From: Nocardioides marmorisolisilvae
GTDB lineage: Bacteria > Actinomycetota > Actinomycetes > Propionibacteriales > Nocardioidaceae
Length of the DNA: 64,000 nt
NCBI RefSeq assembly: GCF_003725775.1
Contig: NZ_RJSG01000002.1
Span: 958,400-1,022,399 of the forward strand
Direction of reading: 5' to 3'
Below are positions 1,977 to 63,395 of this stretch, in pieces. The first letter of the stretch is position 1; each line of letters begins with the position of its first letter. The translations under genes and the position numbers were made by a program. Below the pieces are notes generated by a model that worked only from the letters and a program-made list of their open reading frames with translations, ran no database searches and had not been told where the DNA came from.

Positions 1977-3479
1977 TCAGTCCAGGCGCAACGAGATCCG
2001 TGTCCCGCGGCCGGCGTTGGCGGGCGAGACGACCGACAGGCTGGCGCCTGCGCGGTCGGCGCGCTCCTGCATGATCCGGAGCCCGTGCGAGTCGTCGCGA
2101 GGTGAGCCGAGGCCGTCGCCGTCGTCGATGACGTCGATCTCGGCGCGCGGTGGGTGCACGCGGCAGTTCACCCACAAGTTCTCGGCTCCGGAGTGCCGGC
2201 GCGCGTTGTTGATCGCCTCCTGGGTGATCCGGAGCAGTTCGGCCTCGACGCGGGGGCGCAACCGAGTCGCGGACTCGTCCAGGGTGACGTGCACCGTGAG
2301 TGGGCTGTGCGAGCCGATATGGCGGGCGAAGGTGGCGATGCTCTGCCCGAGGCCCTGTCCGGCCGCCGGCTCGTTGCGCAGGTCGAAGACGGAGTTCCGC
2401 AGCTCGGCCACCACGCGGGTGACCTCGCGTCGAAGGACCGCGACGTCGCGTTGCTGGTCGTCGGTGGTCGCGGACGCGGCCAGGTTGTCGACCAGGTACC
2501 CCAACGACGCCACATCCTGGGCAACGCCGTCGTGGACCTCGCGGGCCAAACGGTGCCGCTCCTCGCTGGTAGCGGACTCGCGCACGCTGGAGAACAGCAG
2601 CGCGGCGTTGAGCCGTAGCGTGGCCGGTTCCAGCTTGGCGCTGACCTGGTCCAGCGTCCGGCTGTCGGGCATGCTCGCGCACTCGACGAGGATCACGGCC
2701 ACCCGCTCGGTCTCGGTCGCCATCGGCAGTGCGACCCGGGCTCCGCCGATCACCGGTCTCCGGGTCTGCCAGGCGCGGTGCAGGAGCTGTTCGGCGTCGT
2801 CGATCGGGAACCCCATCGCTCCGTGGGCGAACCGCAGCGGCGTGAACGCACTGCCGTGCCGGACCACCACGACCGCCTGCCGCACCATGACATCCTCGGC
2901 GACGATGTCGACGGCCTGGTCTGCCAGGTCGACCGGGTCAAGACCAGAGGTCAGCTTCCCGGACAGCGCGTGCAGCTGCCGGATCAGATCGAGGGCACTG
3001 CGGTACGACGAGTCGGAGGTGCCGCGGCGCACGTTCTGGCCGGTGAACGAGCCGAGCAGCCCGAGGCCCAACCCGGTGGTCAGCCAGGTGACCGCGCTGC
3101 CCGCCAGGTCGCTGTTGTACATGTCGAGGGTCAGCCACCCGTACGCCGCCATCGCCAGCGCTTCGCCTAGCAGCACCAGACTGACCCAGCGGACGCCTCC
3201 GGCGATGCCCGCGATCAGAGCCGGCGTCGCCAGGTACGGTAGCGCGGCCTCGTGGGCGGGGAACGCGGCGATCGCAGCGACGCCTGTCAGGGCACCCTCG
3301 AGCACGGCCAGCATCCGCTCGGGCAGCAACCGGCTCAGCGAGATCGCCTCGGCGCCGATCGCGATCACGCTGACGTACCAGACGCCCTCCACCGAGAGGT
3401 CGCTCACCAGAGCCGTGGAGACGATGACGGCCAGGGTGAAGACCCTGGCCGCGATCGTCACACGTCGGAGATCGTTCAC
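1977..3479 (-). CDS. Membrane sensor histidine kinase (HisKA_3 family) in the tad operon
   Basis: A 500-residue sensor kinase. Residues 1-150 are strongly hydrophobic with several membrane segments, about 165-300 look like a GAF-type sensory domain, and the dimerisation/phosphoacceptor helix contains LAREVHDGVAQD with the histidine at about 316. The C-terminal ATPase ends with the DGDGLG and HGLRIMQERA boxes typical of NarX/DesK-type kinases. The GTG start at 3479 overlaps the tadC stop (GTGA), so it is translationally coupled to the pilus operon. Partner: the response regulator at 1287-1928. The signal is unknown. Confidence 0.92.
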   Translation of the reverse strand: MNDLRRVTIAARVFTLAVIVSTALVSDLSVEGVWYVSVIAIGAEAISLSRLLPERMLAVLEGALTGVAAIAAFPAHEAALPYLATPALIAGIAGGVRWVSLVLLGEALAMAAYGWLTLDMYNSDLAGSAVTWLTTGLGLGLLGSFTGQNVRRGTSDSSYRSALDLIRQLHALSGKLTSGLDPVDLADQAVDIVAEDVMVRQAVVVVRHGSAFTPLRFAHGAMGFPIDDAEQLLHRAWQTRRPVIGGARVALPMATETERVAVILVECASMPDSRTLDQVSAKLEPATLRLNAALLFSSVRESATSEERHRLAREVHDGVAQDVASLGYLVDNLAASATTDDQQRDVAVLRREVTRVVAELRNSVFDLRNEPAAGQGLGQSIATFARHIGSHSPLTVHVTLDESATRLRPRVEAELLRITQEAINNARRHSGAENLWVNCRVHPPRAEIDVIDDGDGLGSPRDDSHGLRIMQERADRAGASLSVVSPANAGRGTRISLRLD

Positions 3480-53901: not shown

Positions 53902-54597
53902 ATGTCGAAGGTGAAGAAGGCCCGCGAGATCAACGACATGGTGCGCTACACCATGTGGTCGGTCTTCCGGCTGCGTGAGACGTACGGCATCGCCGACCGG
54001 GCGACCGAGATCGCCGAGGTCGAGGCTTTGTTCGCCAAGCTCGACGACGCCGACGTGACGATCCGCGGTACCTACGACGTCGCCGGTCTCCGGGCTGATG
54101 CCGACGTGATGATCTGGTGGCACGCCGAGACCTCCGACGAGCTCCAGGACGCGTACCACGGGTTCCGTCGTACGGCGTTCGGCCGGCGGCTCGACCCGGT
54201 CTGGTCGCAGATGGCCCTGCACCGGCCGGCCGAGTTCAACAAGAGCCACGTCCCCGCGTTCCTCGCCGACGAGGAGGTCAAGCCCTACGTCTGCGTCTAC
54301 CCGTTCGTGCGCTCCTACGAGTGGTACCTGCTCGAGGACGCCGAGCGCCGCCGCCTCCTGGCCGAGCACGGCCAGATGGCGCGCGACTACCCGGACGTCC
54401 GGGCCAACACCGTGTCGTCGTTCGCGCTCGGTGACTACGAGTGGATGCTGGCCTTCGAGGCTGACGAGCTCTACCGGATCGTGGACCTGATGCGGCACCT
54501 GCGTGGGTCGGAGACCCGCCGCCACGTGCGCGAGGAGATCCCGTTCTACACCGGCCGCCGGCTGGAGCCGGCCGACCTCATCGACCGCCTGCCGTAA
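53902..54597 (+). CDS. hemQ: Coproheme decarboxylase HemQ (ChdC; chlorite dismutase fold)
   Basis: 231 residues from the ATG at 53902, with GGGAGG upstream. HemQ uses H2O2 to decarboxylate coproheme to heme b, the last step of the coproporphyrin pathway. Conserved stretches are INDMVRYTMWSVFRLR, RPAEFNKSHVPAFLADEE, YVCVYPFVRSYEWYLLEDAERRRLLAEHGQMARDYPDVRANTVSSFALGDYEW and LMRHLRGSETRRHVREEIPFYTGRR, all typical of actinobacterial HemQ. The iron-ligand histidine is presumably in LAEHG. Last of the hem cluster. Confidence 0.94.
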   Translation: MSKVKKAREINDMVRYTMWSVFRLRETYGIADRATEIAEVEALFAKLDDADVTIRGTYDVAGLRADADVMIWWHAETSDELQDAYHGFRRTAFGRRLDPVWSQMALHRPAEFNKSHVPAFLADEEVKPYVCVYPFVRSYEWYLLEDAERRRLLAEHGQMARDYPDVRANTVSSFALGDYEWMLAFEADELYRIVDLMRHLRGSETRRHVREEIPFYTGRRLEPADLIDRLP

Positions 54598-54617
54598 CGC
54601 GAGATTCTGAGCGATCT

Positions 54618-54639
54618 GGCTGCGTTTCGAGCCGCAGCC
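54618..54639. terminator. Hairpin between convergent hemQ and msrB
   Basis: GGCTGCG and CGCAGCC pair around an eight-base loop in the 70-bp gap between the two stop codons. No U tract. It may serve as a two-way terminator. Confidence 0.45.
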
Positions 54640-54667
54640 CGACCATTTCGCGCAGAACCGCGCAGGC

Positions 54668-55075
54668 TCATTCCTCCGCGGGCTCCAGCGTCAGGCTGAT
54701 CGAGTTGATGCAGTAGCGCTGGTCGGTCGGGGTGTCGTACCCCTCGCCCTCGAACACGTGGCCCAGGTGCGAGCCGCAGTTGCCGCACCGCACTTCGGTG
54801 CGGGTCATGCCCAGGGTCTTGTCGACGATGTACTCGACCCGGTCCTCGGCCAGCGGGGTGTAGAACGAGGGCCAGCCGCAGTGCGAGTCGAACTTGTTGT
54901 CGGAGCGGAAGAGCTCGCTGCCGCAGGCGCGACACTTGTAGACGCCGACGGTCTTGGTGTCGGTGTACTCACCGGTGAACGGACGCTCCGTACCCGCCTG
55001 GCGCAGCACGTTGTACTCGGCGGGGGAGAGCTGCTCGCGCCACTCCTCCTCGGACTTCTCGACCTGGTATCCCAT
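54668..55075 (-). CDS. msrB: Peptide-methionine (R)-S-oxide reductase
   Basis: 135 residues from the ATG at 55075. MsrB repairs oxidised methionine in proteins. The zinc-binding CxxC pairs are CRACG and CGNCG, and the catalytic cysteine is in QRYCINSISL. GWPSFYTPL and GSHLGHVFEGEG are diagnostic. TACGCT (55082-55087) ends 6 nt before the ATG, giving a leaderless start. A longer in-frame version would run through the neighbouring promoter and is not favoured. Stand-alone, convergent with hemQ. Confidence 0.95.
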   Translation of the reverse strand: MGYQVEKSEEEWREQLSPAEYNVLRQAGTERPFTGEYTDTKTVGVYKCRACGSELFRSDNKFDSHCGWPSFYTPLAEDRVEYIVDKTLGMTRTEVRCGNCGSHLGHVFEGEGYDTPTDQRYCINSISLTLEPAEE

Positions 55076-55146
55076 GTGACCAGCGTACGGAGTCAGACCA
55101 GGCCCACGAGGGGTCAGGAGGTTACGGAACCAGGACGTCAGACCCA

Positions 55147-55641
55147 TCAGGCTTCGAAGTCTGCCTTCAGGTTCTTCAAGGTCCGACCGATGTTGCCGAC
55201 CTGGAACTTGTAGAACCGACTGCCGGTCGCGACCTTGTCGAATCCGGCGGCGAACCAGTCCGGCCACCAGGAGCGGTGGTCGGTCCACGTCTCGGTGACC
55301 CTGGTCCCGCTTCCGACGGGCTCGAAGGTGTAGGTCCAGTTGGCGATCTTGCCGCGCAGCCACGGTGCCCGTACGCCGATCGCCTGGACGTCGAACGAGA
55401 AGACCTGACCTGGCTCGGACGCGGTCACCGTGCAGCGGGTGATCCATCGGGCAGGTCCCCGCTTGTTGCGCCCGGTGAAGACGTCGCCGGTGGCGAGGAT
55501 GCGGCCGGCGCCGTCAGGGGCACCGGTGTTCTCCGGGCTCCAGCGCGGCATGTTCGCGGGGTCGGCCACCTGGGTCCAGATGGCTTCCGGCGAGGCGGAG
55601 ACGTCGACCGAGTCGGTCACGGTCATAGGTCGTCGTGGCAT
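55147..55641 (-). CDS. SRPBCC-fold protein
   Basis: 164 residues from the ATG at 55641. Typical SRPBCC strands and helices: TVTDSVDVSASPEAIWTQVADPANMPRWSPEN, then FDVQAIGVRAPWLRGKIANWTYTFEPVGSGTRVTETWTDH and a final helix. The ligand is unknown. The start is fixed by a TACACT box (55649-55654) 7 nt upstream, and a second in-frame ATG lies five codons in. It is divergent from the polymerase gene with only 28 bp between start codons, so the two promoters interleave. Confidence 0.85.
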   Translation of the reverse strand: MPRRPMTVTDSVDVSASPEAIWTQVADPANMPRWSPENTGAPDGAGRILATGDVFTGRNKRGPARWITRCTVTASEPGQVFSFDVQAIGVRAPWLRGKIANWTYTFEPVGSGTRVTETWTDHRSWWPDWFAAGFDKVATGSRFYKFQVGNIGRTLKNLKADFEA

Positions 55642-55648
55642 GTCGGCG

Positions 55649-55662
55649 AGTGTAGTTAAGGT
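55649..55662. promoter_or_regulatory. Interleaved -10 boxes of two divergent leaderless genes
   Basis: Minus strand: TACACT (55649-55654), 7 nt before the ATG at 55641. Plus strand: TAAGGT (55657-55662), 7 nt before the ATG at 55670. The two boxes are two bases apart, so polymerases cannot occupy both at once. Confidence 0.6.
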
Positions 55663-55669
55663 CGGTGCC

Positions 55670-56749
55670 ATGGCCACTCCTGCCGCCGAGGTGATCGCCG
55701 GGGATCGTGCTGTCCGGGTCTCCAGTCCCGACCGCGTCATCTACCCGGCGACCGAGTCCACGCCCGAGGTGACCAAGCTGATGGTCGCGGAGTTCTTCGC
55801 GGGTGTCGGGGACGGCCTGATGCGGGCGCTGCGCAACCGCCCGACCGCGCTGGAGCGCTGGCCCAAGGGCGTCCAGCCGGGCATCAAGCTCGGCACCGGC
55901 CGGCCGGGGGAGAAGGCTGACGCGTTCTACCAGAAGCGGGTGCCCATGGGCGCGCCCGACTACCTCGAGGACTGCCAGGTCACCTTCCCCTCGGGACGGA
56001 CCGCCAAGGAGGTGTGCCCGACCGAGATCGCCGTACCGGTCTGGTGCGCGCAGATGGGCACGCTGACCTTCCACCCGTGGCCGGTACGCCGCGACGACGT
56101 GGACCGACCCGACGAGCTGCGCATCGACCTCGACCCGCAGCCAGGCACCGGCTTCAGCGACGCGGTGCGCGTGGCGGGGGTCGCCAAGGAGCTGCTCGAC
56201 GACCTCGGACTGGTGGGGTTCCCGAAGAGCTCGGGCAACCGGGGTGTGCACATCTACGTGCGGATCGAGCCGCGCTGGGACTTCACCGACGTCCGCCACG
56301 CGGCGATCGCGTTCGGCCGCGAGCTGGAGAAGCGCGACGACCAGGTCACGACCGCCTGGTGGAAGGAGGAGCGCGGCGAGCGCATCTTCGTGGACTTCAA
56401 CCAGAACTCGCGCGACCGGACGATCGCCTCGGCGTACTCGCTGCGGCCGCTGCCCGGTGCGCCGGTCTCCACCCCGATGACCTGGGAGGAGCTCGCCGGT
56501 GTGAAGGACCCGAAGGTCTGGAACCTGTTCACCGTCCCGGAGCGGATGACCGATGGCGACCCGTGGGCCGGGATCGACGACGTGGCGAACTCGCTGCAGC
56601 CGCTGCTGGACTGCTGGGAGGCCCAGGGCGCGGTCGAGCTGAACTACCCGCCGGACTACCCCAAGATGCCCGGCGAGCCGCCCCGGGTGCAGCCGTCCAA
56701 GAAGGTCGCCGCGCACTGGGACGAGGACGGCAACCGCATCGAGGAGTAG
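55670..56749 (+). CDS. polD: Stand-alone LigD-type primase-polymerase (PolD-like)
   Basis: 359 residues. The polymerase domain of NHEJ LigD occurs here as a separate protein: VIYPATESTPEVTKLMVAEFF, LERWPKGVQPGIKLGTGRPGEKADAFYQKRVP, then ELRIDLDPQPGTGFSDAVRVA with the catalytic DLD, and GFPKSSGNRGVHIYVRIEP. It adds (ribo)nucleotides in end joining and gap repair; mycobacterial PolD1 and PolD2 are similar. LigC lies at 58428-59510. No Ku gene is in the window. A leaderless promoter precedes it. Confidence 0.9.
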   Translation: MATPAAEVIAGDRAVRVSSPDRVIYPATESTPEVTKLMVAEFFAGVGDGLMRALRNRPTALERWPKGVQPGIKLGTGRPGEKADAFYQKRVPMGAPDYLEDCQVTFPSGRTAKEVCPTEIAVPVWCAQMGTLTFHPWPVRRDDVDRPDELRIDLDPQPGTGFSDAVRVAGVAKELLDDLGLVGFPKSSGNRGVHIYVRIEPRWDFTDVRHAAIAFGRELEKRDDQVTTAWWKEERGERIFVDFNQNSRDRTIASAYSLRPLPGAPVSTPMTWEELAGVKDPKVWNLFTVPERMTDGDPWAGIDDVANSLQPLLDCWEAQGAVELNYPPDYPKMPGEPPRVQPSKKVAAHWDEDGNRIEE

Positions 56750-56755
56750 AGCCGC

Positions 56756-56761
56756 TATCTT
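56756..56761 (+). promoter_or_regulatory. -10 box of the thioesterase-like gene
   Basis: TATCTT ends 6 nt before the ATG at 56768 and lies just after the polD stop. A leaderless start separate from polD. Confidence 0.55.
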
Positions 56762-56767
56762 CGGCGC

Positions 56768-57211
56768 ATGACTGACGTGCTGACCGAGCAGACCGAGATG
56801 GTGCACGCCGTGGTGCCGATCCTGGGGCAGATGGGCCTGGAGGTCCTGGTGGCAGAGCCAGGGCGGGCAGCAGCCCGGATCCCGACCGGGCCGAACGTGA
56901 ACCACTTCGGCGTCGCGTACGCCGGCTCGCTGTTCTCCGTCGCCGAGATGCTCGGCGGGATCATCGGCGGCTTCTTCCAGGTCCCGGGAGCGATCCCGAT
57001 CGTGAAGCGCCTGGAGATCGACTTCACCCGGCCGGCGATGACGGCTGCGACCGCCAGCACGACGCTGTCGGAGGAGGAGCAGGCTCGGGTCCAGTCGGAG
57101 GCGACGGAAACCGGCAAGGCCAACTTCGAGCTGCTCACCGAGGTCGTGGGGGAGGACGGGACCGTCGTCGCCAGGACGCACGGGTTCTACCAGCTGCGCG
57201 TGATGGGCTGA
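56768..57211 (+). CDS. Hotdog-fold thioesterase-like protein (DUF4442/YiiD_C type)
   Basis: 147 residues with the hotdog pattern: IPTGPNVNHFGVAYAGSLFSVAEMLGGIIGGFF carries the helix entered through NHFG, followed by strands PIVKRLEIDFTRPAMTAATAS and FELLTEVVGEDGTVVARTHGFYQLRV. Relatives are acyl-CoA thioesterases, and the substrate is unknown. It is not obviously a repair gene, although it sits between the polymerase and the LexA-box gene. Its stop codon directly abuts the LexA box. Confidence 0.8.
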   Translation: MTDVLTEQTEMVHAVVPILGQMGLEVLVAEPGRAAARIPTGPNVNHFGVAYAGSLFSVAEMLGGIIGGFFQVPGAIPIVKRLEIDFTRPAMTAATASTTLSEEEQARVQSEATETGKANFELLTEVVGEDGTVVARTHGFYQLRVMG

Positions 57212-57229
57212 TTCGAACAAGCGTTCGAA
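57212..57229. promoter_or_regulatory. LexA (SOS) box
   Basis: TTCGAAC-AAGC-GTTCGAA, perfect 7-bp arms around four bases. This contains the actinobacterial/Bacillus LexA core GAAC-N4-GTTC and matches the mycobacterial form TCGAAC-N4-GTTCGA in full. It ends 9 bp before the -10 box TACGAT (57239-57244), where LexA would block polymerase. Confidence 0.8.
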
Positions 57230-57238
57230 CAACTGTCC

Positions 57239-57244
57239 TACGAT
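57239..57244 (+). promoter_or_regulatory. -10 box of the LexA-box small gene
   Basis: TACGAT ends 8 nt before the ATG at 57253. No ribosome-binding site, so the transcript is leaderless or nearly so. Confidence 0.55.
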
Positions 57245-57252
57245 GGGCTCCC

Positions 57253-57486
57253 ATGGAGCCCGCCCAGCCCGCCCGCGTGCGACACGTGTGGGTGCTCGGT
57301 GCGTTCAACGCCGCTCCGCGCCCGGGCTTGGTCATCGCCTGGCGCCAGGTCGCGCAGCTGGCGGGTCCGAGCCTGTGGCAGGCGATGGTCGTGCACGTCG
57401 ACGACCGGTACGGCACCACCCAGGCTGAGTGGGTCTTCGCGAACTACCTGGTGCCGGTGAAGTCCAAGCCGCCGGCGATTCCCTGA
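57253..57486 (+). CDS. 77-residue SOS-box-controlled protein of unknown function
   Basis: A small basic protein. It starts EPAQPARVRHVWVLGAFNA and continues LVIAWRQVAQLAGPSLWQAMVVHVDDRYGTTQAEWVFANYLVPVKS. The centre alternates hydrophobic and polar residues as in a small alpha/beta fold with four tryptophans; there is no membrane segment or signal peptide. I do not recognise the family, and it is not one of the known mycobacterial SOS genes I can recall. The promoter has a full LexA box, and the gene stands between polD and ligC. Likely a DNA-damage-induced protein; its mode of action is open. Confidence 0.75.
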   Translation: MEPAQPARVRHVWVLGAFNAAPRPGLVIAWRQVAQLAGPSLWQAMVVHVDDRYGTTQAEWVFANYLVPVKSKPPAIP

Positions 57487-57487
57487 G

Positions 57488-57895
57488 TCAGGGGATCCGC
57501 TTGCCCAGGAACGGGTCCTCGCCGCGCTGGTAGGCCGCCGCGATGTCGCGGATGCGCTCCTCGGAGTCCCGCCAGCCCCGGACCTTCTCGACCCCGAGCA
57601 GCTCGTTGCCGTGGGTGGCCTCGACGATCCAGGGCAGCACCCAGAAGACGCGCAGCAGCGCGAGGATCGGGATCAGCAGCACCAGGACCACGACCAGCTC
57701 GAAGCCGAAGAAGATGATGCTGCCGAACAGGACGACCAGGATCGCGAAGATCAGCCCGAAGACGATGCCCTCGATGCCGTCGGTGAGGTCCATCGCCTCG
57801 AGCGCGTTCCCCGAGACGTCACGCTTCTTCACCTTCCAGGGGAACCACCGCCGCTGAACGTTGATGCCGCGACCGTCCATCGCCGAGATCAGCAT
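57488..57895 (-). CDS. Small membrane protein of unknown function
   Basis: 135 residues. A polar N-terminus (MDGRGINVQRRWFPWKVKKRDVSG) leads to two hydrophobic segments (IEGIVFGLIFAILVVLFGSIIFFGFELVVVLVLLIPILALLRVF, probably two helices). A cytoplasmic tail with a charged helix follows (VEKVRGWRDSEERIRDIAAAYQRGEDPFLGKRIP). No known domain. Its start overlaps the stop of the upstream gene by one base (TGATG), so it is the third gene of the ligC operon. It is convergent with the SOS-box gene, one base apart. Confidence 0.75.
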   Translation of the reverse strand: MLISAMDGRGINVQRRWFPWKVKKRDVSGNALEAMDLTDGIEGIVFGLIFAILVVLFGSIIFFGFELVVVLVLLIPILALLRVFWVLPWIVEATHGNELLGVEKVRGWRDSEERIRDIAAAYQRGEDPFLGKRIP

Positions 57896-58431
57896 CAGAG
57901 CCCGCTGATCCCTTCGCCCTCACCGGCCTGCTCGTCGAAGGTCTCGTGCTCGAGCAGGTGCAGCACCGGGACGCCGAGCTTGCGGCGCGCACGCGAGGTC
58001 CAGTCGAGGTGGAAGAACTCCGAGACCACGTGCGGGCGGGTGAGGATGATCGCCTCGCGGGCGTCGACCTCGGTGACCTTGCCGGCCAGTCCCTGGATCG
58101 GGTCGACCGAGATCAGGTCGCCGACAGCCTTGCCTCCGGCCGCCTCGATCGCCGCGACCGACGACTTCACCGCCTCGCGGGCCACGTCGAGCAGGTCGTT
58201 CTGCAGGCTCTGCAACGACTCCGGGTCGCTGAGCAGGGTCGGCGCGGACAGCACCTCGCCGGTCGCGAGGGTCCCCATGCCTGCTTCGATGCGCGCCGCG
58301 CTGTCCTCGACCGGGACGAGCACGTGGTACAGAACCGGGTCCTCGATGTCCTCGTGCAGGCTGCGGACCTGCTGCGCGTCCTGGGCGGTCAGCGCCTGCT
58401 CCACCAGGAGCACCACGTCGTAGTCGCTCAT
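57895..58431 (-). CDS. Universal-stress-like protein of unknown function
   Basis: 178 residues with an alpha/beta pattern: VVLLVEQALTAQDAQQVRSLHEDIEDPVLYHVLVPVED, then a helical insertion, then AIEAAGGKAVGDLISVDPIQGLAGKVTEVDAREAIILTRPHVVSEFFHLDWTSRARRKLGVPVLHLLEHE. The order of strands and the final helix resemble UspA-type folds, but the ATP-binding GxxG pattern is not seen. Start overlaps the ligase stop by four bases (ATGA), so it is co-translated with ligC. The role in repair is unknown. Confidence 0.65.
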   Translation of the reverse strand: MSDYDVVLLVEQALTAQDAQQVRSLHEDIEDPVLYHVLVPVEDSAARIEAGMGTLATGEVLSAPTLLSDPESLQSLQNDLLDVAREAVKSSVAAIEAAGGKAVGDLISVDPIQGLAGKVTEVDAREAIILTRPHVVSEFFHLDWTSRARRKLGVPVLHLLEHETFDEQAGEGEGISGL

Positions 58432-59510
58432 CCCAACACCTTAGTCAGGTCGTAGCTCACCGGCTCCTCCAGCTGTTCATAGGTGCACGACTCCGGGTCA
58501 CGGTCCAGCCGCCAGTGCTTGAACTGCGCGGTGTGCCGGAACCGGCGGCCCTCCATGTGCTCGTAGCCGACCTCGAGCACCCGCTCGGGTCGCAGCGGCG
58601 TGAAGGACAGGTCCTTGCCCTGGCTCCAGCGCGACTGGGTACCAGGCACCCGGTCGGGGTTGGCGGTCAGGAACTCCTGCCACTTGCCCCACGGGTGGTC
58701 CGACAGCGGCACCACCAGCGGCTGGAGCTCCTCGATCAGCTCGGCGCGGCGGGCCTCGGTGAAGGAGGCCGCGACCCCGACGTGCTGGAGCTCGCCGTCG
58801 GCGTACAGGCCGAGCAGCAGGCTGCCCAGCAGCGGCCGCTCCGGCGTGGAGTTCTTGTGCTCGCGGTAACCGGCGACGACGACGTCGGCGGTCCGGGCGT
58901 GCTTGATCTTGAGCATCGTGCGCGCGTTCTGCTGGTACGGCGCCGACATCGGCTTGGCGACCACGCCGTCCAGGCCGGCGCCCTCGAACTGCTCGAACCA
59001 GCCCTCCGCCTCGGTCGGGTCCAGGGTCGTCCGGGTCAGGTGCACGGGACCGGACAGGCCGGTCAGCGCCTTCTCCATCCGGGAGCGCCGCTCGCTGAAG
59101 GGGAGGGGCGTCAGGTCCTCGTCGCCGAGGGCGAGCATGTCGAAGGCGACGAAGCTGGCGGGGGCCTCGACCGAGAGCAGCTTGATCCGCGACGCCGCGG
59201 GGTGGATTCGTTCCTGCAGCACCTCGAACTCGAGGCGAGGACCGATCGCGACGAAGAGCTCACCGTCCAGGACGCAGCGCTCCGGCAGCTGCGCGGCCAG
59301 GGCCTCGACCACCTCCGGGAAGTACCGGGTCAACGGCTTGGTGTTGCGCGAGGTCAGCTCGACCTCGTCGCCGTCCTTGAACACGATGCACCGGAAGCCG
59401 TCCCACTTCGGTTCGAAGGAGAGCCCGCCGTCGAACTTGGCCGGGTCCGGGATGCCCTTCACCGACTTGGCGAGCATCGGCTGGACGGGCGGCATCACCG
59501 GGAGATCCAT
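58428..59510 (-). CDS. ligC: ATP-dependent DNA ligase (LigC type)
   Basis: 360 residues from the ATG at 59510. The nucleotidyl motif I lysine is in FEPKWDGFRCIVF, motif III in SRNTKPLTRYFPEVVEAL, motif IV in ASFVAFDMLALGDEDL, motif V in GVVAKPMSAPYQ with MLKIKH. An OB-fold follows (FTEARRAELIEEL onward). The size and motifs match mycobacterial LigC, a backup ligase for non-homologous repair. TAGGCT (59518-59523) ends 7 nt before the ATG. It is divergent from the PPK2 gene across 54 bp and heads a three-gene operon. Confidence 0.93.
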   Translation of the reverse strand: MDLPVMPPVQPMLAKSVKGIPDPAKFDGGLSFEPKWDGFRCIVFKDGDEVELTSRNTKPLTRYFPEVVEALAAQLPERCVLDGELFVAIGPRLEFEVLQERIHPAASRIKLLSVEAPASFVAFDMLALGDEDLTPLPFSERRSRMEKALTGLSGPVHLTRTTLDPTEAEGWFEQFEGAGLDGVVAKPMSAPYQQNARTMLKIKHARTADVVVAGYREHKNSTPERPLLGSLLLGLYADGELQHVGVAASFTEARRAELIEELQPLVVPLSDHPWGKWQEFLTANPDRVPGTQSRWSQGKDLSFTPLRPERVLEVGYEHMEGRRFRHTAQFKHWRLDRDPESCTYEQLEEPVSYDLTKVLG

Positions 59511-59517
59511 GCCGGTG

Positions 59518-59558
59518 AGCCTAGCCGTGCGCCCCGACATCGCGAGGATGGATAACCT
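59518..59558. promoter_or_regulatory. Back-to-back leaderless promoters of ligC and ppk2
   Basis: Minus strand TAGGCT (59518-59523) is 7 nt before the ligC ATG. Plus strand TAACCT (59553-59558) is 6 nt before the ppk2 ATG at 59565. Neither has a ribosome-binding site. Confidence 0.55.
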
Positions 59559-59564
59559 CGGCCC

Positions 59565-60392
59565 ATGGCGCTGCGCGACGAGCTCAGATTCCGGGGAAGC
59601 CTGGCCGACCATCCGACCGACGGCACGCCGGGGTTCGACGGCGGCAAGAAGGATGCCGAGAAGGAGCTGCCCGAGCTCGGCCCGGAGATGGCCGACCTTC
59701 AGGAGAAGCTCTTCGCCCACGGCTACACCGAAGGCAAGCAACGCCTCCTGCTGGTGCTCCAGGGCATGGACACCTCCGGCAAGGGCGGGATCCTCTCGCA
59801 TGCGGTCGGCCTGCTCGACCCGGGCGGGATGCACCTGAAGTCGTTCAAGAAGCCGACCAGGGAGGAGCTCTCGCACGACTTCCTCTGGCGGATCGAGCGC
59901 GAGGTGCCGGCCGCGGGCGAGATCGGCATCTTCGACCGTTCGCACTACGAGGACGTGCTCGTGGTCAAGGTCCACCAGCTCACCGACGCACCTGAGATCG
60001 AGCGCCGCTACGACGCCATCAACGCCTTCGAGAAGAACCTCGTCGACTCCGGCACCGTGATCGTGAAGTGCATGCTGCACATCTCCAAGGAGACCCAGAA
60101 GGAGCGCCTGCTCGCGCGGCTCGACGACCCGACGAAGCAGTGGAAGTTCAAGCCCGAGGACGTCGACGAGCGCGGCTACTGGGACGACTACCAGAAGGCG
60201 TACGAGATCGCGCTCGAGCGCTGCAACACCGACCACGCCCCGTGGTTCGTCATCCCGAGCGATCGCAAGTGGTACCGCAACTGGGCGATCGGTCGGCTGC
60301 TGCGCGACCACCTGGCGGCGATGAACCTCGACTGGCCGGCGCCCGACTACGACATCGCGGAGCAGCGCGCCCGGCTGGAGGACGAGAAGTGA
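59565..60392 (+). CDS. ppk2: Polyphosphate:nucleotide phosphotransferase (PPK2 family)
   Basis: 275 residues. PPK2 uses polyphosphate to phosphorylate nucleoside mono- or diphosphates. Walker A VLQGMDTSGKGGILSHAVG and Walker B IGIFDRSHYEDVLVVKVHQL are intact, with the lid region FKPEDVDERGYWDDYQKAYE and the PSDRKWYRNWAIGRLL end. The subclass (AMP, ADP or GDP acceptor) cannot be set by eye. Leaderless promoter. Its stop overlaps the GTG of the next gene (GTGA), making a three-gene unit with HipA-like and DUF3037. Confidence 0.94.
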   Translation: MALRDELRFRGSLADHPTDGTPGFDGGKKDAEKELPELGPEMADLQEKLFAHGYTEGKQRLLLVLQGMDTSGKGGILSHAVGLLDPGGMHLKSFKKPTREELSHDFLWRIEREVPAAGEIGIFDRSHYEDVLVVKVHQLTDAPEIERRYDAINAFEKNLVDSGTVIVKCMLHISKETQKERLLARLDDPTKQWKFKPEDVDERGYWDDYQKAYEIALERCNTDHAPWFVIPSDRKWYRNWAIGRLLRDHLAAMNLDWPAPDYDIAEQRARLEDEK

Positions 60393-61156
60393 GCGGCCTG
60401 CCCCGGGTGACCGCCACCAGGTTCGTCACCCCGCTGCGGGAGGGCGGGTCGCTGCCCGGCATCGTCGAGGCGGACGACCTGGGCACCTATGTCTGCAAGT
60501 TCCGCGGCGCCGGCCAAGGTCTCCCGGTGCTGGTCGCCGAGGTGATCGTGAGCGGTCTGGCCGAGGCGCTCGGCCTGAAGACCCCGAGCCTGGTCGAGGT
60601 GGACCTGACCGAGCCGATCGCACGCTACGAGGCCGACGAGGAGGTCCAGGACCTGCTGAACGCCAGCCTCGGGCTCAACCTCGGGGTGGACTTCCTGCCG
60701 GGCTCCTTCGGGTTCGACTCGGGCGTCGAGGTCGACTCCACCTACGCCGCCACGGTGATGTGGCTGGACGCGTACGTCGCCAACGTCGACCGAAGCTGGC
60801 GCAACCCGAACCTGCTGGTGTGGCACGGCGACGTCTGGGTGATCGACCACGGGGCCTCCCTGTACTTCCACCACGGCTGGGCGGGCGGGCTCACGGATCC
60901 TCAGCGGTTCGCCGAGCAGCCGTGGTCGGCCGACGACCACGTCCTCGGCGCGCACCTGGATGCGGTGGCGCGCCTGGATGTCGAGCTCGGAGCCCGGATC
61001 ACCGACGCTGTTCTGGATGAGATCCTCGGCCGGGTCCCCGACGAGTGGCTGGTCGGACCGGTGAGCCCGGCCGAGATGCGGGCGGCGTACCGGGCGTTCC
61101 TGGTGGCTCGTCGCGACGGCAACCGCAGCTGGCTCCCCAAGCGGGGTGCGGCATGA
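60389..61156 (+). CDS. HipA-like kinase
   Basis: 255 residues from the GTG at 60389. The HipA/PI-kinase core is seen in YVCKFRGAGQGLPVLVAEVIVSGLAEALGL and TYAATVMWLDAYVANVDRSWRNPNLLVWHGDVWVIDHGASLYFHH, where the catalytic D and N (NVDRSWRNPN) and metal-binding D (IDHG) stand. It lacks the HipA N-terminal subdomain 1, so it is a reduced version, and there is no HipB antitoxin gene. Genes of this type commonly pair with DUF3037, as here. Target unknown. Confidence 0.85.
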   Translation: MSGLPRVTATRFVTPLREGGSLPGIVEADDLGTYVCKFRGAGQGLPVLVAEVIVSGLAEALGLKTPSLVEVDLTEPIARYEADEEVQDLLNASLGLNLGVDFLPGSFGFDSGVEVDSTYAATVMWLDAYVANVDRSWRNPNLLVWHGDVWVIDHGASLYFHHGWAGGLTDPQRFAEQPWSADDHVLGAHLDAVARLDVELGARITDAVLDEILGRVPDEWLVGPVSPAEMRAAYRAFLVARRDGNRSWLPKRGAA

Positions 61157-61527
61157 GCCCGTACCAATACGTCGTGCTGCGCTGCGTCCCGCGGATCGAC
61201 CGTGAGGAGTTCGTGAACGTCGGGGTGGTGCTCTACTGCCAGGCTGGCGACTTCCTGGACGCGCGCTGGCACGTCGACCGCGACCGGATCCAGGCGCTCG
61301 ACTCGGCGGTCGACCTCGATGCTCTCTGCGAACGGCTCACCTTCATCGACGGCGTGTGCCGGGGCGACGCCTCGCTGGGCGACGTGGCCAGCGGTGACCT
61401 CGGGACTCGGTTCGGCTTCCTCAAGGCGCCGCGGTCGACGGTCGTGCAGCCCGGCCCGGTGCACGGCGGCATCACTGCGGACCCTGCGGCTGAGCTGGAG
61501 CGACTCCTCGGCCAGCTCGTCCGGTAG
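61153..61527 (+). CDS. DUF3037-domain protein
   Basis: 124 residues. It starts PYQYVVLRCVPRIDREEFVNVGVVLYC and continues with FLDARWHVDRDRIQALDSAVDLDAL, matching DUF3037. The protein is soluble and predicted mixed alpha/beta. It overlaps the HipA-like stop by four bases (ATGA), so the two are co-translated. DUF3037 with a HipA-like kinase is a recurrent pair across bacteria; whether DUF3037 regulates or is phosphorylated by the kinase is unknown. Confidence 0.85.
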   Translation: MSPYQYVVLRCVPRIDREEFVNVGVVLYCQAGDFLDARWHVDRDRIQALDSAVDLDALCERLTFIDGVCRGDASLGDVASGDLGTRFGFLKAPRSTVVQPGPVHGGITADPAAELERLLGQLVR

Positions 61528-61541
61528 AGGCGCGTTGATTC

Positions 61542-63395
61542 GTGCGTACCTACCTTCTCGCCGTGTCTAAGAGCGGATCGCCCCTGCCGTCGCTCGACCA
61601 GGTCGACCGGGTGGCCCGGGCGAGCCTGCCGTTCCGTACGACGGGATGCGATGCGTCGTGGTCCGCTGAAGACGGTCTCGCCGGGCTGTGGGTGTGGCAC
61701 AACGAGCAGTCAGACGCCGCGAAGCCACTGAACCTTCATCCGGACGGTGCTGAGGGCTGGTCGGGCTACTTCGTCGGGTCACCGGATCGTCGCGAGCCCA
61801 GTGCCACGGGTGGAGTCTGGGCGCACTTCCACGTCACGGCGCAGGGTGCGGTGGCAACCTCGTGCGCTTCCGGAACAGAACAAGTCTTCTACGCCGAGAG
61901 CGCACAGCACGTGGTCGTCGGCACCCGCGCACAGCTGGTGGCTCTCGCCGCCTTCGGTGAACAGCTCGTTCTCGACACCGCTGGGCTGGCCGCGATCGTG
62001 AATGCTGGTTTCAGCACGACCGACCGCACCATCTTCGACGGTGTACGTGTGCTCCGCCCGGGCTGGAGAATCGTCGCGACTCAGGGAGCAGGCGTCGTCC
62101 TTGAGCCGGCGGTCTCGGCTGACTTCGACGGATCGGCCGGACAGGCACTGATCGCTTCGGTGTCCGGGCTTCCCGCGACAGCGAGCACGATCCGGCTGGG
62201 CCTGACTGGTGGTCGCGACTCACGCCTCCTCGCGGGGCTGCTGGTCAAGGCAGGTGTTCCGGTCCGCGCTTACACCGCGGGCGACGAAGCCGACCCGGAC
62301 GTGGTGATCGCCCGTCGCGTCGCGGAGGTGCTTGGCATCGAGCACTCGGTGACCGGCCCGCGCGGATCCAATGCGCGCGGCGACAATCTCGAGGTCGACC
62401 CGCGGGCGCGGGTGCGCGAGGCCGTCGCCCTGGGAGAGGGCATGCTCGGGGCCTACGACCGGGTCGGGCGCATCGACGAGTCCTTCAAGCCGGCTCTCAT
62501 CCCGTTCTCGGGCAGCGGCGGCGAGATCCTCCGTGGCTACTACGCGAACGCACTGCACGGCGCGGAACTGCCCGACGTCGCGCGACGGGTGCTGCGCAGA
62601 CGCGCCCTGGCGCAGGAGAAGCTGCTGACCGCGGACGCCAAGCAGCAGTACCTGGCAGACCTCCAGGACTGGATGGACGCTGTCGTGCGCGCTCCCGGGC
62701 TGGCGCTGTCCGACTTCTACCTGCGGCAGCGAACGGCTCGCTGGTCCGGCGCCGCCCGCGGATCGTCCTCGATGGGCTCCCTCGCCTGGCGCCCGTTCTT
62801 CGATCATCACGTCGTGCAGGCGGTGCAGGCCGTGCCACTCGCCGAGCGCACCAGCGAACGGTTCTTCGCCTCCCTGATCGACGAGCTGGTGCCGGAACTC
62901 GCCGATGTGCCCTTCGTCGGCAAGCGCTGGGCGTTTGAGGAGCTGCCGCCCTCCGATCCAGGTGAGCGTGCACGCTGGGTGCAGCGAGCACCGCTGAAGG
63001 GTGCGCACGGCGAAGGACCCAGCTTCAACTGGCGAACCGATCTCGCGGAGGTTCGTGCGGAACTCGGCTCCATCGTCGAGTCCGCTCCCGACGCGTTCTG
63101 GGCCGTGGTCGACCACCAAGCCGTCGACCGGTACTTGCAGCGAGTGCCCACGGCGGACCGAACGCAGACGGTGCCACTCTGGAACCTCGCTACCGTCGCT
63201 CACGCCGTGGCGAGCTCCGTAGAACTGGGTGAGGAGAAGTTCTCTCCGGCACCCACAGCGATCCACGTTCGCCGATCGTCGGGTGAAGCGCCGACGGCAC
63301 CCCGGATCACGCTTTCCGCGTACTCACGTGCTGCCGCGAAGCGCGTCTATCTGCGACTGGCGTCGGCCAGAGCGGCCTTCAGCCGACGACGCTGA
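61542..63395 (+). CDS. Asparagine-synthase-like protein lacking the glutaminase cysteine
   Basis: 617 residues from the GTG at 61542; a GTG at 61563 is a rival because TACCTT (61551-61556) lies 6 nt before it. I keep 61542 because RTYLLAV supplies the first strand of the glutaminase-like domain. The N-terminal domain (1-190) has no Cys-2, so it cannot use glutamine as in AsnB. The synthetase half has the PP-loop RLGLTGGRDSRLLAGLL, then AYTAGDEADPDV. Many such proteins activate carboxylates in peptide or polysaccharide maturation. Codon choice is looser than its neighbours (more GAA, CAA, ACA). No maturation partners are adjacent. Confidence 0.82.
   Translation: MRTYLLAVSKSGSPLPSLDQVDRVARASLPFRTTGCDASWSAEDGLAGLWVWHNEQSDAAKPLNLHPDGAEGWSGYFVGSPDRREPSATGGVWAHFHVTAQGAVATSCASGTEQVFYAESAQHVVVGTRAQLVALAAFGEQLVLDTAGLAAIVNAGFSTTDRTIFDGVRVLRPGWRIVATQGAGVVLEPAVSADFDGSAGQALIASVSGLPATASTIRLGLTGGRDSRLLAGLLVKAGVPVRAYTAGDEADPDVVIARRVAEVLGIEHSVTGPRGSNARGDNLEVDPRARVREAVALGEGMLGAYDRVGRIDESFKPALIPFSGSGGEILRGYYANALHGAELPDVARRVLRRRALAQEKLLTADAKQQYLADLQDWMDAVVRAPGLALSDFYLRQRTARWSGAARGSSSMGSLAWRPFFDHHVVQAVQAVPLAERTSERFFASLIDELVPELADVPFVGKRWAFEELPPSDPGERARWVQRAPLKGAHGEGPSFNWRTDLAEVRAELGSIVESAPDAFWAVVDHQAVDRYLQRVPTADRTQTVPLWNLATVAHAVASSVELGEEKFSPAPTAIHVRRSSGEAPTAPRITLSAYSRAAAKRVYLRLASARAAFSRRR

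Follow-up and report, generated by a model that had tools for sequence, protein, structure and literature searches.

What is the role of a gene of 77 codons that stands directly behind a perfect LexA operator and whose product none of the protein family libraries searched recognises? The gene occupies positions 57253 to 57486 of the window, a stretch of 64,000 nucleotides from the genome of Nocardioides marmorisolisilvae (contig NZ_RJSG01000002.1), and its protein has no match above chance in Pfam, NCBIfam or PADLOC. Comparison with its relatives indicates that the gene is almost certainly controlled by LexA, and its product very probably has an SH3/Tudor-like fold. On balance, it is probably a LexA-repressed, stand-alone adaptor of the SOS response built on that Tudor-like fold.

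Operator and probable promoter of the 77-codon gene

The regulatory region and the open reading frame (ORF) comprise the following features.

57212 to 57229, plus strand: LexA operator, the perfect palindrome TTCGAAC-AAGC-GTTCGAA (core 16-mer at 57213-57228), from reading the sequence and a pattern search
57225 to 57240, plus strand: second, degenerate LexA box TCGAACAACTGTCCTA with 2 mismatches, from the pattern search and comparison with relatives
57239 to 57244, plus strand: probable -10 element TACGAT, 9 bp after the perfect operator and overlapped by the second box
57253 to 57486, plus strand: ORF of 77 codons, from ATG at 57253 to TGA at 57484-57486, encoding a predicted Tudor/SH3-like barrel in a short form that lacks an N-terminal tail

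A sequence-only reading of this DNA had placed the box, the -10 element, the ATG and the stop at these positions, and re-reading the sequence confirmed them. The operator is made up of TTCGAAC (57212-57218), AAGC (57219-57222) and GTTCGAA (57223-57229). TCGAAC-N4-GTTCGA is the mycobacterial LexA consensus; it has one perfect match in the window, and allowing up to two mismatches raises the count to 7, where 2.86 are expected; 4 of 100 shuffles reach 7. The LexA sites of Streptomyces venezuelae given in the excerpted part of PMC9380542 include TCGAACATCCATTC and TCGAACGTGTGTTT.

The two boxes overlap through a common GTTCGAAC. When 8 relatives were lined up, the TCGAACAACTGTCCTA box proved to fall in the same register as the one operator that they have, TCGAACAnnTGTTCTA, so that the perfect box at 57212-57229 would be an extra upstream copy. 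A TAnnnT hexamer follows the operator directly in 7 of the 8, a few bases before the ATG, and is lacking in L020. In the window, the ATG lies 8 nt after TACGAT and 23 nt after the perfect operator; the short distance from the -10 element makes a leaderless or near-leaderless mRNA likely. LexA bound at either box would cover this promoter. A sigma-70 scan found no promoter, which is not decisive since the scan requires a -35 hexamer, and Rfam had no match in 54000-62500, so no RNA element was recognised there. The TGA of the upstream ORF (57209-57211) abuts the palindrome; LexA would therefore act on the 77-codon ORF alone in the plus direction, as the sequence-only reading had claimed and as the comparison with other genomes supports.

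That reading also asked whether LexA boxes precede orthologs, and in most of those read they do. In the Nocardioidaceae, a box with at most one mismatch lies within 250 bp in 28 of 30 loci; the remaining two are L026, whose box has 2 mismatches, and L040, which has none. A scan of named genomes gave 164 pattern matches and 129 relatives, the best 80 of which form the set of named loci. In 75 of these 80, a box with at most one mismatch lies within 260 bp. Over 350 bp of upstream sequence, 77 of the 80 have a box with two mismatches or fewer (61 perfect, 15 with one mismatch, 1 with two), and in the three others (L101, L103 and L142) the available sequence extends upstream from the core by just 78, 55 and 188 bp. 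A further set of 87 loci, which includes the 30 and overlaps the named loci in one place (L082 is the same place as L026), has a box with at most one mismatch within 350 bp in 73 cases. The other 14 include the partial match L049, three loci whose site has two mismatches (L026, L067 and L186), and L055, with only 194 bp of upstream sequence and no box in it. The same sites are rare elsewhere in these loci, with 4 in 725,173 bp for the 80 and 2 in 243,752 bp for the 87, and three reversed or scrambled control patterns were found upstream of none of the 80 named loci. The half-sites in the named loci are near-invariant (1.4-2.0 bits), compared with 0.5-1.2 bits in the spacer and 0.1-0.9 bits in the flanks, the box columns being inflated by the choice of the best match in each row.

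Among the copies that lack a box are a Yimella plasmid copy and its look-alike in family f6, two more f6 copies, both f76 copies that were read, and one copy on a viral contig. From these sequences, the link to LexA belongs to the main chromosomal lineages and does not extend to every homolog. A member of a LexA regulon is marked by a near-consensus operator that overlaps the promoter or lies just upstream of it and is kept before orthologs, and the 77-codon gene shows both features. Strong comparative evidence supports this regulation; the function of the protein we infer.

The gene also has its place among the other LexA sites of its genome. The whole genome contains 7 perfect 16-mer sites and 32 sites with at most one mismatch, against 8 for a reversed control pattern; the surroundings of 16 of the 32 were read. 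Besides the 77-codon ORF, the exact sites precede an AlkB-like oxygenase gene, imuA'-imuB, a gene for a tRNA-editing domain, and three DUF222 genes (L003, L005 and L007). Sites with one mismatch precede lexA (locus L252, identified by its LexA_DNA_bind and Peptidase_S24 domains), recA, uvrA, a radA-like gene, a LysM gene (two sites) and the DUF222 gene of L255. The radA-like gene and the DUF222 gene of L007 were named by eye, and ImuA' and AlkB by eye on top of Pfam matches. Two of the sites read have no such gene, one lying within an ORF (L252, 5397) and one in L254. Judged by the genes behind them, the sites form a self-consistent SOS regulon in which the 77-codon ORF owns one of the 7 perfect operators.

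Several other sites in this regulon merit mention in their own right. At L006/L227 (contig C4 of the same genome, about 1707501), a perfect LexA box lies ~73 bp before the ATG of the gene matching Pfam tRNA_edit, and this aminoacyl-tRNA editing-domain gene is a possible, unexpected SOS member. Two adjacent boxes (L252 2880-2911, contig C4 near 269379-269410) lie between the divergent LysM gene and an ORF of 90 codons, ~1 kb from lexA, an arrangement that we take to resemble the lexA/LysM pair of other Actinobacteria. Four boxes adjoin DUF222 genes, those of L003, L005 and L255 recognised by Pfam and that of L007 by eye; these genes are presumably of the 13E12 type.

The protein family and its predicted fold

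Relatives of the 77-residue protein also went unrecognised, with no real match in Pfam or PADLOC for the 30 members scanned or in NCBIfam for 44, among which the single match had an E value of 0.094. In PHROGs, two members match entries without a function (E 0.006 and 0.035). Searches with the window protein found matches in 46 of 197 genomes of the family Nocardioidaceae, and a more central member used as query matched 132 of 293 genomes of the order. Genomes of a second family of the order (f77, 7.5-9.6 Mb in size) contain as many as 3 matches each; one assembly, with 10% contamination, has 5. At the level of the class, a Geodermatophilaceae core found 39 of 393 genomes and 14 of 122 genera, an undercount since this search missed the window genome itself. 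A scan of the phylum with an alignment of 30 rows gave 4 of 396 genomes, which is not read as absence, since in the genomes listed just 14 candidates out of more than 100 each received a score. The best 80 of the 129 relatives in named genomes come mostly from Blastococcus, Geodermatophilus and Modestobacter, then from Nocardioides, a Pimelobacter metagenome-assembled genome and others. As far as these searches reach, relatives turn up often in Nocardioidaceae and Geodermatophilaceae and are also present in other actinobacterial families.

Copies on mobile elements are few. With the L024 protein as query, plasmids gave one match, in Yimella (L251 near 3001-3192), with no annotated feature beneath it and no LexA box, and annotated phages gave none. 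A search of IMG/VR with an alignment of the family returned 6 stretches and one relative (L081 4956-5183), which directly follows an integrase-like ORF recognised by eye and has no LexA box. With one plasmid copy, one viral-contig copy and no phage match, the gene was not taken to belong to mobile elements; a role in defence was rejected, PADLOC having no match in the 30 members scanned.

The members have a conserved core, R-x-RH-(V/C)-W-V ... PGL-(V/L)-x-x-W-R ... W-x-A/G-x-V ... W-(V/L)-x-A-x-x-L-x-P, and all 30 rows of the alignment have W30, R31 and W60. The median ratio of nonsynonymous to synonymous change (dN/dS) in the core is 0.28, calculated from 2252 pairs with a synonymous difference of 0.15-0.6 among 68 cores of equal length (12 of the 80 cores, of other lengths, were left out). 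By this measure, the 77-residue protein belongs to a family under purifying selection. Most named relatives also possess a conserved N-terminal tail, (V/M)AGGM..RG..G.SL..RA..SG (for example, L113 4878-4946), joined to the barrel by a variable linker rich in proline and alanine. The tail looks like a short linear binding motif, and the window protein does not have it.

The AlphaFold model is a confident SH3/Tudor-like barrel of five predicted strands, the last of them preceded by a short turn, and NusG is among its structural neighbors. Structures of YolD, UmuD', PcrA/UvrD and ImuB-C are not among the neighbors listed, an absence that carries no weight. The hidden Markov model for Agenet matches 4 of 30 members weakly (best E 0.025), which taken one by one is chance level, and unrelated families also match single members. 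A sequence profile search of PDB returned matches to polymerase theta only, with E values of 0.25 or more. The strand order, with its short turn before the last strand, and the weak Agenet matches recall the eukaryotic Agenet/Tudor domains ("Royal family"), whereas the family described here is bacterial, SOS-controlled and without a known methyl-lysine context, and its sequence matches are at chance level singly.

The core has a median net charge of 0 (range -4 to 4 in 47 rows), and no catalytic motif was recognised in the barrel protein. Together with the modeled barrel, rich in tryptophan and arginine, these features suggest a module that binds a protein. The charge of the window protein is +3 and that of the tail has a median of +2, which keeps nucleic acid open as a target. 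The window protein has no transmembrane-like stretch.

Candidate partners and roles

The sequence-only reading proposed a dedicated damage-response protein of no recognised family, and both the library scans and the conservation of the operator favor this. In an undamaged cell, LexA dimers would sit on the two overlapping operators that cover the promoter. Cleavage of LexA stimulated by RecA is the established SOS pathway; after damage, it would free the promoter and produce a burst of the soluble 77-residue protein, predicted to be a single SH3/Tudor-like beta-barrel with invariant tryptophan and arginine. This adaptor would bind protein to protein, docking on a single part of the damage machinery, which may be RNA polymerase, a translesion polymerase or mutasome, or some other repair protein, and redirecting that part for the length of the SOS response. 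In long-form relatives, the N-terminal tail on its linker rich in proline and alanine would add a second binding site. A damage-response adaptor is a better bet than a protein with no connection to repair, while any one named partner is by itself unlikely to be the right one; among the candidates, a translesion polymerase would stand slightly ahead of RNA polymerase, and another repair protein is also considered.

If the partner is a translesion polymerase, the protein would be an accessory subunit similar to YolD/YqjX or UmuD', a LexA-induced SH3 barrel that activates or targets a Y-family polymerase or ImuB by binding its C-terminal tail. Excerpts of PMC6511836 and PMC3765255 contain such parallels, namely YolD/YqjX and UmuD' as small SH3-type partners of Y-family polymerases, and a stand-alone ImuB-C domain. 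The 77-residue family shares with YolD/YqjX, which are LexA-regulated in Firmicutes and expected to partner Y-family polymerases, the small size, the SOS operator, an SH3-like barrel and possibly a location apart from the partner; in Staphylococcus aureus, according to the part of PMC6511836 available, yolD and uvrX lie apart, each with LexA sites. The window genome also has a LexA-boxed imuA'-imuB. The family differs from YolD/YqjX in that no sequence relation was detected (no YolD or UmuD model in Pfam-A matches any of 30 members at E 0.1 or less), its barrel is predicted to be of the Tudor type, and it was seen only in Actinobacteria, on which the searches centered. YolD presumably has a Pfam model that could have been matched. 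No associated polymerase was found either, none being recognised by eye in flanks of 1.5 kb for 29 loci and up to 5 kb for 9. Across the genus, the gene does not go together with ImuB-C in the 24 genomes compared (8 have both, 2 the gene only, 9 ImuB-C only and 5 neither; Fisher p 0.65). The stand-alone ImuB-C domain, of about 80 residues, is similar in size, beta structure, conserved tryptophan and SOS context. Identity with it was nevertheless rejected: there is no profile match to ImuB-C, hhalign gave probabilities of 0.2 and 0.1 percent with 1 column aligned against the ImuB-C of the same genome and of relatives, and the window genome already has ImuB-C fused to ImuB. A role as a polymerase subunit is thus a tentative possibility and, taken alone, unlikely.

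An SOS-induced factor that binds RNA polymerase, in the manner of the Tudor-like domains of PcrA/UvrD or CarD, would couple transcription to repair or redirect transcription after damage. The Tudor/KOW-like fold and the presence of NusG among the structural neighbors agree with this. The excerpt of PMC6511836 offers precedents, since RNA polymerase is bound by the Tudor domain at the C-terminus of PcrA/UvrD and, it is suggested, by that of DinX (DUF3553). Like the C-terminal Tudor domains of PcrA/UvrD and DinX, CarD and the KOW domain of NusG, the protein would be a single small barrel of the Tudor/KOW type with a link to damage or transcription. Those are domains of larger proteins, however, and have no sequence match with the 77-residue family; no Pfam model of such Tudor families matches any of 30 members, and the barrel is too common for the fold to decide. 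This role is doubtful.

Many lineage-specific small SOS proteins act as division regulators, and a cell-cycle or division regulator similar to SulA or YneA, holding growth during repair, would fit the patchy spread and fast divergence of the family. Against it, the window protein lacks a transmembrane-like stretch, and that place could be filled by another gene of this genome, the LysM gene adjoining the pair of LexA boxes close to lexA, to which we would assign a ChiZ/YneA-like role. Such a regulator is accordingly quite improbable here.

The sequence-only reading set the gene in a DNA-repair island and beside genes of non-homologous end joining (NHEJ), on account of its neighbors:

55670 to 56749, plus strand: LigD-type primase-polymerase (Pfam LigD_Prim-Pol), a local neighbor only
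56768 to 57211, plus strand: upstream neighbor, a thioesterase-like ORF (Pfam DUF4442/YiiD_C) that is not part of the system
58428 to 59510, minus strand: LigC-type ATP-dependent DNA ligase (NF006078), a local neighbor only

The word island was too strong, since the thioesterase-like gene lies between the LigD-type polymerase and the 77-codon gene, and the stretch from the latter to LigC holds two ORFs on the minus strand, neither with a Pfam family above the cut-off. An NHEJ accessory factor would act with these two enzymes, and the window gene does sit between them. In genus g19 (L168 and L169), the small gene also lies between the two, further from both than in the window; in genomes G074 and G083 of this genus the distances are 1.3-2.4 kb to the LigD-type polymerase and 3.6-4.4 kb to LigC. 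This is possibly an old neighborhood or a coincidence. A weaker match in G097 is ~1 kb from the polymerase gene. The conserved linkage to either enzyme expected of an NHEJ accessory gene was not found, however. The polymerase gene is within 5 kb in just 4 of 58 genomes (the window genome, G074, G083 and G097), the 58 being those for which both places are listed, without G028 and G060, for which that of the small gene is not; in the other 54 no LigD-type polymerase is listed within 5 kb, and in many of them the two genes are on different contigs. Even the closest relatives are unlinked (186 kb apart in G075, on another contig in G081), and both enzymes occur in only 2 of 20 neighborhoods of 13-19 kb. 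Co-occurrence is uninformative, the polymerase being present in 60 of the 60 genomes searched. Flanks read by eye show that neighbors vary between genera. From this gene order, the repair-island setting is a local fact of the window genome and some g19 members, and an NHEJ accessory role is very improbable.

A chance origin of the ORF or of the box has next to no likelihood: high-GC genomes yield many spurious ORFs and TCGA-rich palindromes arise by chance, as the expectation of 2.86 given above illustrates, but the protein is under purifying selection and the operator recurs across families, both of which argue strongly against it.

Meaning for the SOS response of Actinobacteria

LexA control of small proteins is already known as a kind. 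The literature searches made returned no description of this family, of its fold in an SOS role, or of the conservation of its operator across actinobacterial families. The wider proposal, an SOS effector family of stand-alone bacterial Tudor/Agenet-like barrels under LexA in several actinobacterial families, most with the tail AGGM..RG..G.SL..RA..SG in Geodermatophilaceae, has about even prospects. If it is true, dedicated damage-response adaptors exist outside current annotation, with a role comparable to that of YolD or UmuD' elsewhere. Geodermatophilaceae are known to live in dry soil and on rock.

In species other than the models, SOS regulons have mostly been drawn up from repair genes already known. 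The 77-codon gene, unrecognised by Pfam, NCBIfam and PADLOC, holds a perfect operator, while lexA, recA and uvrA of the same genome have operators with one mismatch. This operator, and the operators that relatives keep across families, suggest that the gene probably does useful work when the cell survives or exploits DNA damage. Its partner would show whether Actinobacteria have a small barrel of their own that regulates mutagenesis, or transcription during damage.
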